A stretch of DNA of 64,000 nt from Geodermatophilus siccatus. Its GTDB lineage: Bacteria; Actinomycetota; Actinomycetes; Mycobacteriales; Geodermatophilaceae. Of this stretch, positions 51,838 to 61,394 are shown in pieces (position 1 is the stretch's first letter; the number at the start of each line of letters is the position of its first letter). The stretch covers positions 248,001 through 312,000 of the forward strand of contig NZ_FNHE01000001.1 in NCBI RefSeq assembly GCF_900103785.1, given 5' to 3'. The notes below the pieces were generated by a model. The model was given only the letters and a program-made list of their open reading frames with translations. It ran no database searches and was not told the origin of the DNA. Both the position numbers and the translations under genes were made by a program.

Positions 51838-51914
51838 TGGTAGCGGGGACAGGATTCGAACCTGTGACCTCTGGGTTATGAGCCCAGCGAGCTACCGAGC
51901 TGCTCCACCCCGCG
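51838..51914 (-). tRNA. Initiator tRNA-fMet (CAT), copy 1
   Basis: 77 nt on the minus strand including an encoded 3' CCA. Anticodon CAT in the loop CTCATAA. It is an initiator by the three G-C pairs closing the anticodon stem (CTGGG/CCCAG) and by the unpaired C1-U72 end (CGCGGGG...CCCCGCTA). T arm is ACAGG TTCGAAT CCTGT. It differs from the copy at 61318 only in one T-stem base pair (A-T instead of G-C) plus flanking sequence. Confidence 0.97.
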
Positions 51915-57054: not shown

Positions 57055-57092
57055 GGGCACTCGGGCACTCGGGCACTCGGGCACTCGGGCTC
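57055..57092 (+). repeat. 8-bp tandem repeat upstream of the dikinase-like operon
   Basis: TCGGGCAC in three perfect copies (57061, 57069, 57077), with a partial copy before and a diverged TCGGGCTC after. It ends 24 bases before the TATGTT box, thus covers or abuts the -35 region. Confidence 0.85.
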
Positions 57093-57115: not shown

Positions 57116-57121
57116 TATGTT
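57116..57121 (+). promoter_or_regulatory. Candidate -10 box of the PEP-utiliser operon
   Basis: TATGTT, 28 bases before ATG 57150. The transcript would then carry GGGAGA as ribosome site. Confidence 0.4.
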
Positions 57122-57149: not shown

Positions 57150-58883
57150 ATGGACGAGGTCCGCACCCGACCCCAGGACACCGCGCAGCAGAGCACCGGC
57201 CGGCCGGATTGGACCGCCCCAGGGCCCGGCTCGTGGTTCCTCGACGCCAGCCACGTCCCCCGGCCGCTGTCCCGGTTCACCGCCTCGGTGATGCCGGACG
57301 CGGTGATGGCCGGGTTCGCCGACACCCTCGCCCGCTACGGCAGCCTGCTCGAGGGGATGGACGTCGCCATCGTCGGGGGCTTCATGTACAGCCGCCTACG
57401 CGCGGTCGGCGCGCCTCCGGACGCCGTCGGACCGCCGCCCGAGCCGGTCTTCCGGCAGCTGCTGCAGGAGGTCCCCGAGCTGCGCGAACGGCTGGCCACG
57501 GCCGAGGCTGTTCTCGCAGAGCGCCGGTGGCGGCGGGACCTGCAGCTCTGGGACGACTCGGTCAAGCCGGCGCTGCACGCCCTGCACAAGGCCCTCACGA
57601 CGGTCGCCCTGCCGGCGCTCGACGACCGGGAGCTGTGCGACCACGTCGACCGGTGTGCCGCGGCCCTGTCCGAGGGACACCTGCAGCACCATCGCCACAA
57701 CGCGCCGGCGATGCTCCCCGTCGGTGACCTCGTCGTCCATGCCCTGCGGTGGGCGGGGGTCCCTCCCAGCGAAGTGCTCGCGTGCCTCGCCGGCGCGAGC
57801 CCGGTCACCGAGGGGGCGCCCGAGGAGCTCGCCGAGCTGGTCACCGCTCTCGCGGACGACGAGGACGCCGCAGCGCTGGTCGGGGATGACACGGTGGAGC
57901 CGGGCGACCTGCTCGACCGCCTCGTGAGGCTGCCAGGACCGGTCGGCGACCGAGCCGCCGCGTATCTCTCCGTGCTGTCAGCTCTCCCGGTCGACGGGGA
58001 GGACGCCGTCGGCGAGCCGGGCTCCCTGGAAGCTCCCGGCCTGGTCGTGGGGCGGATCCGCGGCGCCCTCCAGCGCGACGGTCGACGCGACCACGCATCG
58101 GCGAAGGAGGCCGCAGCGCAGGTGCGCAACGCCGTCCCCCCGGACCACCGGGCGGAGTTCGACGACCTCCTGACCGAGGCCCTGATGGTCTACCGGCTGC
58201 GCGACGAGCGCGCCGTGCATGGTGACCGGCTGATGGGGAGCGCCGCCCGGTCCGCGCTGCTGGAGGTCGGTCGCCGGCTGCAGGACCGCGGCGCGCTGGA
58301 CGACGCCACGGACGCGGTGGACCTCGACGCCGACGAGGTCCGCTCGCTGCTGCTGGCGGGGCATGGTCCCTCTCGAGGAGAGGTCGCCGAACGAGTGCGT
58401 TGGCGGCGCACCGCGGACTACCGCGACATGCCCCCGGGCTTCGGCCCGCCGCCGGGTCCGCCTGTCCCGGCGGCGTGGCTGCCACCCGCCGCCGCGCGCA
58501 TCCACGAGGCGATCGGGTTCGTGGTCTCTGCCGTGCTCCAGGACGCCGCCCGCGCGTCCGGTGCCCGGACGGTCCACGGGCTCGGGGTGAGCACGGGCAG
58601 GCACGAGGGCGTCGCCCGGGTGATCGCCGGCCCGGAGGAGCTGTCCCGCATCCAGGTGGGGGACGTGCTGGTCGCTCCGAGCACCGGGCCGGCGTTCAAC
58701 CTGGTGCTGCCGCGCTTGGGCGCGATCGTGACCGATCGGGGCGGACTGCTGTCGCACGCCGCCATCGTGGCGCGGGAGTTCGGCATCCCCGCGGTCGTCG
58801 GCTGCCAGGACGCCACCAGGGTCGTCCCCGACGGAGCGCGCATACGCGTCGACGGGGCCAGCGGCACGGTGACGCTGCTGTGA
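57150..58883 (+). CDS. PEP-utilising enzyme-like protein with phosphohistidine (mobile) domain
   Basis: 577 residues. The last 90 residues are the PEP-utiliser mobile domain, with phosphoacceptor His536 in GGLLSHAAIVAREFGIPAVVG. The preceding 480 residues start GPGSWFLDASHVPRPLSRF, the pattern seen in the central (rifampin-binding-like) part of rifampin phosphotransferases and PEP-synthase-like proteins, and then are helical and poorly conserved. The ATP-grasp domain normally at the N-terminus is absent; it is encoded separately by the next gene, whose GTG overlaps this stop. ATG 57150 after GGGAGA; an earlier ATG at 57117 overlaps the -10 box. Confidence 0.78.
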   Translation: MDEVRTRPQDTAQQSTGRPDWTAPGPGSWFLDASHVPRPLSRFTASVMPDAVMAGFADTLARYGSLLEGMDVAIVGGFMYSRLRAVGAPPDAVGPPPEPVFRQLLQEVPELRERLATAEAVLAERRWRRDLQLWDDSVKPALHALHKALTTVALPALDDRELCDHVDRCAAALSEGHLQHHRHNAPAMLPVGDLVVHALRWAGVPPSEVLACLAGASPVTEGAPEELAELVTALADDEDAAALVGDDTVEPGDLLDRLVRLPGPVGDRAAAYLSVLSALPVDGEDAVGEPGSLEAPGLVVGRIRGALQRDGRRDHASAKEAAAQVRNAVPPDHRAEFDDLLTEALMVYRLRDERAVHGDRLMGSAARSALLEVGRRLQDRGALDDATDAVDLDADEVRSLLLAGHGPSRGEVAERVRWRRTADYRDMPPGFGPPPGPPVPAAWLPPAAARIHEAIGFVVSAVLQDAARASGARTVHGLGVSTGRHEGVARVIAGPEELSRIQVGDVLVAPSTGPAFNLVLPRLGAIVTDRGGLLSHAAIVAREFGIPAVVGCQDATRVVPDGARIRVDGASGTVTLL

Positions 58884-59695
58884 CCCGCCGGCCGCTGCCG
58901 CTGGCGGCGGTGGAGGACGAGACCGCCTACGGTGGCAAGGCGGTGGCACTGGGGACGGCGCTGCGCAACGGGCTGCCGGTGCCGCCGGGGATCGCACTGC
59001 CGGCGGAGCTCGTCGCCGAGTTGTCCGGTGAGCGCCCTGCCCGGGATGCCGTCCGCGCAGTCGCTGAGCAGCAGCCCGGACCGCTGGCGGTCCGGTCGTC
59101 GGCGATCGGTGAGGACGGCGCGAGTTCGAGCTTCGCCGGGCAGCACCTGACGGTCCTCAACCTGGAGGACCCCGACGCCGTCGTGGACGCAGTGGTGCGG
59201 GTCGCCGCGTCGGCTTGCTCCCCGTCGGCCGTGGCCTACCGCCGGGCCCGCGGGGACGCGTCGGTGCCGCGCTGCGGGGTGGTGCTGCAGCGACTGGTGC
59301 CGGCCGTGGCTGCCGGGGTCCTGTTCTCGATGGACCCGGTCACCGGAGCCGACGAACTCGTCGTGGAGGCCAGTTGGGCACTCGGCGAGGCGGTGGTGGA
59401 GGGCCTGGTGATCCCCGACCGGTACCGGCTGGACCGCTGCGGCCGGGTGATCGAGCAGGTGATCGGCCACAAGGACCGGGCGGTCGTACCCCGGCCCGGC
59501 GGCGGCACGGCGACGGTCGACGTCGGTCAGGAGCGGTCGCGGCAGCCCTGCCTCGGACCCGAGGAGCTCCGCGCGCTCGCCGACCTGGCCCGGGACTGCG
59601 ACCGCGTGTTCGAGGGTCCCTCCGACGTGGAGTGGGCGTGCGCGGGCGGATCGGTCAGCCTCCTCCAGCGCCGCCCCATCACGGTGCTCTGCTGA
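58880..59695 (+). CDS. Stand-alone PEP/pyruvate-binding ATP-grasp domain protein (PPDK_N)
   Basis: 271 residues. Core motifs of the PPDK/PEP synthase nucleotide-binding domain: YGGKAVALGTALRNGLPVPP, then LAVRSSAIGEDGASSSFAGQ, VVLQRLVPAVAAGVLFSMDP, ELVVEASWALGEAVVEG and the C-terminal VEWACAGGSVSLLQRRPI. Nothing follows this domain. It would bind ATP and transfer the phosphate to the His domain of the preceding protein in trans. The start codon overlaps the stop of that gene (GTGA). Confidence 0.83.
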   Translation: MTRRPLPLAAVEDETAYGGKAVALGTALRNGLPVPPGIALPAELVAELSGERPARDAVRAVAEQQPGPLAVRSSAIGEDGASSSFAGQHLTVLNLEDPDAVVDAVVRVAASACSPSAVAYRRARGDASVPRCGVVLQRLVPAVAAGVLFSMDPVTGADELVVEASWALGEAVVEGLVIPDRYRLDRCGRVIEQVIGHKDRAVVPRPGGGTATVDVGQERSRQPCLGPEELRALADLARDCDRVFEGPSDVEWACAGGSVSLLQRRPITVLC

Positions 59696-59698
59696 GCC

Positions 59699-61054
59699 GT
59701 GCGGCCCGTGGCACCCCAGGGCAGCGGACCTGCGGCGCTCGCGGGCAGCGGCACCGGCCGGGCGGTCGTCGGTGCGGCGTGCCTGGTGACCACCCTGGTG
59801 CCCCTGGGCTCGACATCGGTGGCCGTCGCCCTGCCGTCCATCCAGACGGCCTTCGCTGCCGAGGCGGGCGGCGCCGTGGCCCTGGTGACCGCCTACCTCG
59901 TCGTCACCGCGGCTTGCCAACCGATCGCCGGCGCCCTGGGCGACCGGTGGGGTCGGCGGCGCAGCGTCCTCCTCGGAGCGGCCGGGTTCGGCGTGGCCTC
60001 GGTGCTGGCGGCCGCGGCCCCGAACCTGCCGGTCCTGGGCACGCTGCGCTGCGTGCAGGCCGCGTGCGGCGCGCTCGCGCTGGTGAACGCGGCGGCGACA
60101 GTCCGGACGGCGGTGCCGGACGACCGGCGCGGACGGGCCTTCGGCCTGGTGGGAGCGTCGGCCACGGCGGCGGCCGCGGCAGGTCCGGCCCTCGGCGGGG
60201 GCGCCGTCCACATGATCGGCTGGCGGGGAGCCTTTCTCGTGGGCGCGCCGGTGGCCGTGCTGGCCCTGGCCGCCGCGCTATGGGGCTTCTCGGCGGATGC
60301 TCGCGCCGCGGCACCGGCTCGCTTCGACCTCTCCGGTGCCGGCCTCCTCCTCCTGCTGCTCGGCGGGAGCGCCGCCCTCCTCAGCGCATCCCCGCAGCTA
60401 CCCGTGGCAGTTGTCGCGGCGGCGGGCGCCGGACTCGCCGGGCTCGCGGTGTGGTTCGTCCGGCACGAGCTGCGTCAACCGCTGCCCGTCCTGGACGTAC
60501 GCGTGTTCCGGATCCGCGGTGTGGTGGCGGCCGGTGCCGCGGTTGCGACGGGCAACGCGGCCCTGTACACGGTGGTCCTCGCCGTGCCGCTGCTCGTCGG
60601 CACGGCCGGCGCGGTGGGGCTGTTGCTCCCGCTCCTCAGCGGAGCCAGCGTCGCCGCCCTGCTGGGTGGCCGGCTCAGCGACCGCTGGGGACGGCGCCGG
60701 CCGGCGGTGCTCGGAGCGGTGCTCATGACCGTTCCGGCCGTCCTGCTGCTGGCGGTGGAACCGGGCCGGGACCGGCTCGCCGCCGCCCTGCTGCTGGGAG
60801 CCTGCGGGGTGGGCCAGGGCCTGGCCACCGCCGCCGTCCAGGCCGCGGGACTGGAGGCGCTGCCGCCGGAGCGGGCCGGCCTGGCCTCCGGAGTCTGGTC
60901 GACCTGCCGCTACCTCGGCAGCATCACCGGCGCGAGCCTGCTCACCCTGTTGATCTCTGGTGAGGCGGGCACCGGGGTCTTCACGCTGGCCGCCGTCGCC
61001 GGGGCGCTGGCGATCGCGGCGTCGGCCGCCCTCCCCGTCAGGCCGACGGCGTAG
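59699..61054 (+). CDS. MFS transporter (drug efflux type)
   Basis: 451 residues, about 12 to 14 membrane segments. The signature between helices 2 and 3 is GDRWGRRRSVLLG, repeated in the second half as SDRWGRRRPAVLG; motif C-like proline/glycine pattern GASATAAAAAGPALGGG is typical of antiporter drug exporters. GTG start four bases after the ATP-grasp gene stop, third gene of the operon, so export of the same substrate that the dikinase modifies is plausible but inferred. Confidence 0.9.
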   Translation: MRPVAPQGSGPAALAGSGTGRAVVGAACLVTTLVPLGSTSVAVALPSIQTAFAAEAGGAVALVTAYLVVTAACQPIAGALGDRWGRRRSVLLGAAGFGVASVLAAAAPNLPVLGTLRCVQAACGALALVNAAATVRTAVPDDRRGRAFGLVGASATAAAAAGPALGGGAVHMIGWRGAFLVGAPVAVLALAAALWGFSADARAAAPARFDLSGAGLLLLLLGGSAALLSASPQLPVAVVAAAGAGLAGLAVWFVRHELRQPLPVLDVRVFRIRGVVAAGAAVATGNAALYTVVLAVPLLVGTAGAVGLLLPLLSGASVAALLGGRLSDRWGRRRPAVLGAVLMTVPAVLLLAVEPGRDRLAAALLLGACGVGQGLATAAVQAAGLEALPPERAGLASGVWSTCRYLGSITGASLLTLLISGEAGTGVFTLAAVAGALAIAASAALPVRPTA

Positions 61055-61317: not shown

Positions 61318-61394
61318 TGGTAGCGGGGGCAGGATTCGAACCTGCGACCTCTGGGTTATGAGCCCAGCGAGCTACCGAGCTGCTCCACCCCGCG
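61318..61394 (-). tRNA. Initiator tRNA-fMet (CAT), copy 2
   Basis: 77 nt on the minus strand including CCA, anticodon CAT, same C1-U72 end and CTGGG/CCCAG anticodon stem as copy 1. The T arm is GCAGG TTCGAAT CCTGC, so the first T-stem pair is G-C where copy 1 has A-T: a compensated change. The first 20 bases of 5' flank are shared with copy 1 except for two bases. Confidence 0.97.

Follow-up and report, generated by a model that had tools for sequence, protein, structure and literature searches.

Positions 57,150 to 61,054 of a 64,000-nucleotide window of the Geodermatophilus siccatus genome (contig NZ_FNHE01000001.1, positions 248,001 to 312,000) hold a cassette of three co-directional genes, here termed A, B and C, which appear to encode the two chains of a small-molecule dikinase and a transporter of the major facilitator superfamily (MFS; Table 1). 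A sequence-only reading of this stretch had placed a histidine-bearing domain, a free ATP-grasp protein and an MFS protein at these positions, and open reading frames (ORFs) and Pfam scans confirmed this layout. The genes are closely packed: the start of gene B overlaps the end of gene A by 4 bases, and 3 bases separate the stop of B from the start of C. Upstream of gene A, a GGGAGA stretch ends 4 bases before the ATG, and a second in-frame ATG lies at 57117. A scan for sigma-70 promoters and terminators found none.

The profile search that the sequence-only reading had proposed found PF00391 in A (residues 502-572, E 1.9e-24) and PF01326 in B (E 4e-57), in each case as the sole Pfam match at E<=1. 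Gene C matched MFS_1 (E 2.5e-54).

Table 1. Features of the cassette and of its borders, in window positions
Feature	Position	Strand	Description
Gene A	57150..58883	+	577 aa; substrate domain (residues ~14-470) and C-terminal His swivel domain of a predicted two-component dikinase
Gene B	58880..59695	+	271 aa, GTG start; free PPDK_N-type ATP-grasp protein, compact N-lobe
Gene C	59699..61054	+	451 aa; DHA2-like MFS transporter, subfamily co-inherited with A/B
Substrate-binding domain of A	57189..58553	+	Homologous to PpsA substrate domain and RPH RIF-binding domain; His35, Tyr80, Trp134, His180 and Arg351-Asp352-Glu353 kept
Codon of predicted catalytic His536	58755..58757	+	CAC, within TDRGGLLSH; invariant in alignments
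8-bp perfect tandem repeat	57055..57090	unspecified	4.5 copies (GGGCACTC); ~60-95 bases 5' of gene A
tRNA-Met	51838..51914	-	One border of the variable segment
tRNA-Met, second copy	61318..61394	-	Other border; 96% identical over 95 nt

Conservation of the dikinase pair

One genome search confirmed 152 homologous loci, the best 80 of which were kept for counts, with genes assigned by heuristic ORF calling. B lay downstream of A in 61 of the 70 loci that could be evaluated (in the other 10 of the 80, A was incomplete or the contig ended), although at locus L055 the two were 1001 bases apart. The predicted catalytic His536 was present without exception in an alignment of 75 A proteins, taken from 74 of the 80 loci and the window, and in the 50 rows of a joint alignment. 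The recurrence of B downstream of A, together with the conservation of this histidine, indicates that the A-B arrangement is not due to chance.

The residues predicted to bind ATP in B were likewise conserved. All 45 aligned B proteins carried Lys20, Arg72, Glu251, Gln263 and Arg265 (the set comprised the window and 44 of 59 B references, leaving out a few sequences and the B proteins fused to a cyclic-nucleotide-binding (cNMP) domain), and the same five residues were kept in 12 of 12 members of a set that includes five one-chain relatives. Loss of His536 or of the ATP-grasp residues, which the sequence-only reading had named as the observation that would overturn a dikinase assignment, was therefore not what the alignments showed. 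In rifampin phosphotransferase (RPH), Lys22, Arg117 and Thr136 position ATP, and replacing Arg666 or Glu667 with alanine abolished rifampin inactivation, both residues being needed for transfer (excerpts of PMC4844700). In A, Arg666-Glu667 corresponds to Arg351 and a following acid, which is Asp352 when aligned with MAFFT and Glu353 when aligned with HMMER; among the 28 aligned members of the window's own family, Arg351 was kept in 28 and Asp352 and Glu353 in 27 each. At the position of RPH Lys670, A has no lysine in the rows shown of this low-identity alignment.

The first 480 residues of A, which had been taken for a unique part, proved to be related to known substrate domains. A profile of residues ~14-468, built from 34 A proteins, matched PpsA-like proteins with 98.9% probability (hhalign, E 1.6e-17, 382 columns, ~19% identity) and, more weakly, the substrate domains of RPH (94.1%, E 1.3e-7). 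In the PDB, its only matches below E 0.001 were RPH chains, representing three sequences (hmmsearch, best E 1.1e-6). Four residues of this domain, His35, Tyr80, Trp134 and His180, were identical in 28/28 window-family and 11/11 PpsA-like rows and were found in at least 4 of 5 one-chain rows, whereas they were absent or gapped in 6/6 RPH rows. Thus, the pocket signature of A looks like that of phenol-acting enzymes, although this likeness may be caused by shared ancestry rather than by a shared substrate.

Partners, transporter and genomic setting

Next to A and B, most loci had one of three kinds of partner. Partners were counted in the 63 loci whose downstream sequence ran to 2.5 kb or more, the other 17 of the 80 being dropped for an incomplete A or the end of a contig; L051-L054 and L095 come from the same genomes as L038-L041 and L043, and a single set was counted. 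An MFS gene was adjacent in 33 of the 63 loci (after the pair in 30, before it in 2 and fused to B in 1). A TetR gene lay upstream in 13, which form a sister clade and consist of near copies from 8 Comamonadaceae and 5 Streptomyces. A cNMP domain was found in another 13, fused to B in 9 and next to B in 4, and 4 loci had none of these partners. Pfam confirmed the partner domains on examples, including the cNMP domain in L114 (fused) and L103 (next gene). When partner type was mapped on the A tree (63 loci and the window), 5 changes were needed, and the TetR and cNMP types each arose once. The MFS type was spread over Actinomycetota, Pseudomonadota, Acidobacteriota, Myxococcota and Cyanobacteriota.

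Within one clade of the A-B family, the cNMP domain was fused to the C terminus of the ATP-grasp protein in L069, L079, L101, L104, L106, L107, L114, L119, L120, L122 and L129, and was encoded by the gene right after it in L082, L089, L093, L103 and L111. Two A-B pairs are carried on plasmids: L058, on plasmid pVarWS11_iso of Variovorax sp. WS11, is preceded by a TetR gene, and L132, on a Streptomyces plasmid, by a helix-turn-helix gene. The Comamonadaceae copies differ hardly at all from one genus to another, suggesting recent transfer. In L071, from a metagenome-assembled genome (MAG), B and the MFS protein form a single frame of 738 amino acids (L071:3123-5336).

The MFS protein appears to have been inherited together with A. 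Across 36 loci, pairwise distances between A proteins correlated with those between MFS proteins (r=0.889, with 0/2000 permutations as high), as they did without the four nearest relatives (r=0.873, 0/2000), although this correlation may partly reflect common vertical descent. The best PDB match of gene C was an antiseptic resistance protein, which we take to be QacA, and EfpA was also among its PDB matches. The window protein contains the stretch GPALGG; GPxxGG is a motif of DHA2-type MFS drug exporters. Near its N terminus it carries PLGST, aligned with TMDMT of the antiseptic resistance protein, and a PL[NG]xT stretch was found there in all 36 MFS proteins (PL[NG]ST in 35 and PLNAT in L096).

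Near the MFS-type loci, no catabolic pathway turned up consistently. We surveyed 174 neighbouring genes of 49 loci, leaving out 10 near-copy loci, and scanned 98 of the 100 neighbours of 28 MFS-type loci with Pfam (two long frames were left out). The 98 proteins matched 160 families, of which the commonest listed were ABC_tran (8) and then alpha/beta hydrolases (5). Across the 80 loci, the most frequent gene clusters after A, B, MFS and TetR were an ABC ATPase (9), an enoyl-CoA hydratase-like protein (5), a cNMP protein (5) and a short-chain dehydrogenase/reductase (SDR; 4). The TetR-type sister clade had no further recurring gene.

The cassette lies in a 9.5-kb segment between two tRNA-Met genes (Table 1), which also holds, on the opposite strand, a TauD-type gene and ABC-transporter-type genes, the latter named from their sequence without a domain scan. 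Two DNA matches to the tRNA-Met stretch were found on one contig in 17 of 17 genomes of the genus, including this one, at spacings from ~0.2 to ~32 kb, which marks the site as a spot of variable content and an insertion hotspot. A full-length A is missing from G009 and G016, the two genomes that come closest to this one at the spot. Split A-type genes were present in 7 of the 58 family genomes searched, including this one, a patchy distribution. In a sample of the phylum, the A profile matched 19 of 396 genomes at E<=1e-20 (this one included), with frames of 567-725 amino acids in 11 and 739-1297 amino acids in 8.

Proposed function and its alternatives

We lean modestly towards reading A and B as a two-component small-molecule dikinase that works with a transporter, so that phosphorylation of a hydroxylated toxic compound is coupled to export. 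The parts of this reading differ in strength. The sequences themselves establish the domains, the conservation of the catalytic residues, the homologies, the recurring operon and the co-inheritance of the transporter. Beyond that, A-B very probably has dikinase chemistry, and the MFS protein is likely to act on the same pathway. Whether this pathway expels and detoxifies a compound or takes it up for catabolism is a narrower call, which tips slightly towards export; that direction fits the relatives of the MFS protein, the absence of any catabolic pathway that recurs at the loci, the existence of a TetR-type sister clade and the location of the cassette in an accessory part of the genome.

The mechanism we propose is modelled after that of HpeHI (excerpts of PMC12167813). 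B would bind ATP, and the beta-phosphate would pass to His536 on the swivel domain of A. This domain would then turn to A's own substrate domain and hand the phosphate to a hydroxyl of the small molecule, with AMP and inorganic phosphate released. The MFS protein would be a dedicated transporter, most likely exporting the phosphorylated product or the unmodified toxin, and the cassette would thereby shield the cell against a compound that bears a hydroxyl group and is probably phenolic or polyketide-like. A more specific version, which we offer tentatively and consider doubtful, is that the MFS subfamily is specific for the phosphorylated product of A-B, that the B-MFS fusion tethers the ATP-grasp domain to the pump and couples modification to expulsion, and that in the sister clades the core was re-wired to a TetR switch or to a cyclic-nucleotide-gated ATP-grasp protein.

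Several observations weigh against the export reading. An adjacent MFS gene is missing in 30 of the 63 loci, and a near relative of the window, L052, has A and B without it. B is missing in 9 of the 70 loci: A stands with an MFS gene in L115, L126 and L096, and without either in L090, L109, L118, L123, L066 and L125. The best NCBIfam match of gene C, an EmrB-type efflux family, scored 146.1 bits, below its cut-off of 230.2, and the third PDB match was a putative triacylglyceride transporter. At the position of an Asp in the antiseptic resistance protein and in EfpA, all 36 MFS proteins have Asn or Gly (Gly in the window). An acidic residue in the first membrane helix of DHA2 exporters has a role in proton coupling, and coupling may therefore differ in this subfamily. 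The direction of transport is our guess from family resemblance. Catabolic-type genes do occur nearby, with AMP-binding and enoyl-CoA hydratase families in 2 of the 98 scanned neighbours each, and enoyl-CoA hydratase-like and SDR genes in 5 and 4 of the 80 loci. In addition, the characterized two-component relatives, HpeHI, CreHI and PpsAB, serve catabolism (excerpts of PMC12167813).

These last points favour the main rival to export, in which the MFS protein would import a phenolic nutrient that A-B phosphorylates and traps, starting its degradation as HpeHI, CreHI and PpsAB do. The substrate domain, with its His/Tyr/Trp/His set, also matches PpsA-like proteins and not RPH. Yet no carboxylase or UbiD family was among the 25 commonest of the 160 neighbour families (each of the remaining 135 was matched by no more than 2 of the 98 proteins), unlike the pps and hpe clusters; the MFS protein resembles drug exporters, and the TetR-type clade lacks any further recurring gene. 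We regard uptake and catabolism as rather unlikely, though worth keeping in view. Less probable still is that A-B phosphorylates an endogenous metabolite, such as a secondary metabolite, a lipid head group or a signalling compound, which the MFS protein then secretes. Co-inheritance of the transporter across five phyla would fit such a role, a cNMP domain on or beside the ATP-grasp chain would suit regulation of an internal pathway, and RedH/PigC ligases have ATP-grasp and swivel pieces in common with A-B; against this, no biosynthetic gene family recurs at the loci, and patchy presence in the family suits an accessory trait. Finally, it is very improbable that A is catalytically inactive or is fuelled in another way, for example by moving phosphate between small molecules without ATP, as HpeH alone can do between substrates (excerpts of PMC12167813): the loci with A and no B would fit this idea, as would a search of six B-less genomes, three of which had no B-like match and three of which had ATP-grasp only in frames of 722-785 amino acids, but all six are MAGs and may be incomplete, and in the window B overlaps A and keeps its ATP-grasp residues.

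Returning to export coupled to phosphorylation, a transporter inherited along with the dikinase pair suggests that this clade has a specific role in biology, on which its three genes offer a tractable handle. Small-molecule dikinases are a large family, and the substrates known to us are limited to rifampin and a few phenols. If detoxification is correct, the cassette would represent a second route, besides RPH, for dikinase-based inactivation of compounds in bacteria. The cNMP domain on the ATP-grasp chain of the sister clade would make cAMP-like control of a dikinase testable.

Comparison with known systems

Several identities were rejected. Membership of RPH was excluded by the scores of A (85.8 bits) and B (167.8 bits) against the cut-off of 999 for NCBIfam NF041857, and by the presence of two chains instead of one. 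Elsewhere in the same genome, outside the window (G000:C25:198079-200631), is a one-chain RPH-like dikinase that scores 544.6 bits against this cut-off. Phosphoenolpyruvate (PEP) synthase and pyruvate phosphate dikinase carry a C-terminal PEP/pyruvate-binding barrel domain; A and B have none, their only matches at E<=1 being PF00391 and PF01326. For anti-phage defence, no PADLOC match was found for A, B or C at E<=0.001. The central domain is not unique, given its homology to PpsA-like and RPH substrate domains.

The sequence-only reading had also presented the split into two chains and the inverted domain order as new. The two-chain dikinase itself held up, with intact residues and a recurrent link to an MFS gene, but the claim of novelty did not: PpsAB, CreHI and HpeHI have the two-chain design, and the A-then-B order is already known from PpsAB and HpeHI. 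In Azoarcus sp. KH32C, a ppsA-ppsB type pair in this order lies beside phenylphosphate carboxylase and UbiD genes, and in hpeH-hpeI the gene for the His and substrate domains comes first (excerpts of PMC9618137). The hpe cluster holds carboxylase and phosphatase genes, and the words 'transporter' and 'MFS' do not occur in the main text of that paper as excerpted (PMC9618137). What looks new is a separate, multi-phylum clade of two-component dikinases with one adjacent partner, including an MFS subfamily of its own. We found no description of an MFS-linked dikinase pair in the open-licence literature, outside which most subscription papers fall.

Phylogenetic trees place the window family apart from the relatives of the characterized phenol kinases. 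The A tree held 37 window-family rows and the B and A+B trees held 28, with PpsA-like proteins, RPH and one-chain relatives included, but not the sequences of HpeH and CreH. The window family formed one clade (support 100/100 for A and 100/99 for B), whereas PpsB-like rows did not form one group in the B tree. In the best arrangement, the window family and the one-chain group were set against PpsA-like proteins and RPH (95/92 for A, 89/90 for B and 98 SH-aLRT for A+B), an arrangement that would require two or more splitting or fusing events. The spacing between the ATP-grasp Lys and Arg supports this grouping, because the N-lobe is compact in both (52 residues in the window, 50-61 in 25 other window-family rows and 49-67 in 5 one-chain rows), as against 94 in 6 RPH and 93-99 in 10 PpsB-like rows; three rows, including Azoarcus PpsB, could not be measured. 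However, a single split in common with PpsA-like proteins was not rejected by the approximately unbiased (AU) test (p 0.418 for A and 0.053 for A+B, with a long-branch warning), and we dropped a firm claim of independent splitting.

The one-chain relatives, from the window's genus and from other families of its order, have the same domain set and compact N-lobe and are ~29-35% identical to A. They differ in being a single chain of ~780-840 amino acids in 5 of 6 loci, L048 lacking the ATP-grasp part. In the 18-20 kb around each of the six, nothing matched gene C, the sole contrast available for MFS adjacency. Large regulator genes, all from one sequence cluster, precede five of the six (L044, L045, L046, L048 and L049); the copy in L046, the only one checked for domains, carries AAA_16 and a LuxR-type helix-turn-helix.

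Among characterized transporters, gene C most resembles the QacA/EfpA/EmrB-type (DHA2) exporters, which supply its best NCBIfam kin, below cut-off, and are among its best PDB matches; it departs from them in the N-terminal acidic residue, replaced by Gly or Asn, and has a length of 451 amino acids. RPH shares with A-B the ATP-grasp, substrate and His swivel domains and the Arg666-Glu667 counterpart, but it is one chain, its Lys670 has no counterpart in A, and RPH rows lack or are gapped at His35 and His180. Closest in design are HpeHI of Rhodococcus, CreHI of Corynebacterium and PpsAB of Thauera, Aromatoleum and Azoarcus, in which one chain likewise carries the substrate and His swivel domains and the other the ATP-grasp domain. 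Proteins of this kind share with A the swivel motif T/SxxGGxxxH (TDRGGLLSH in the window), and the PpsA-like proteins a homologous substrate domain with the same His/Tyr/Trp/His residues. The window family differs from them in forming a separate clade, in its compact N-lobe and in its MFS, TetR or cNMP partner.

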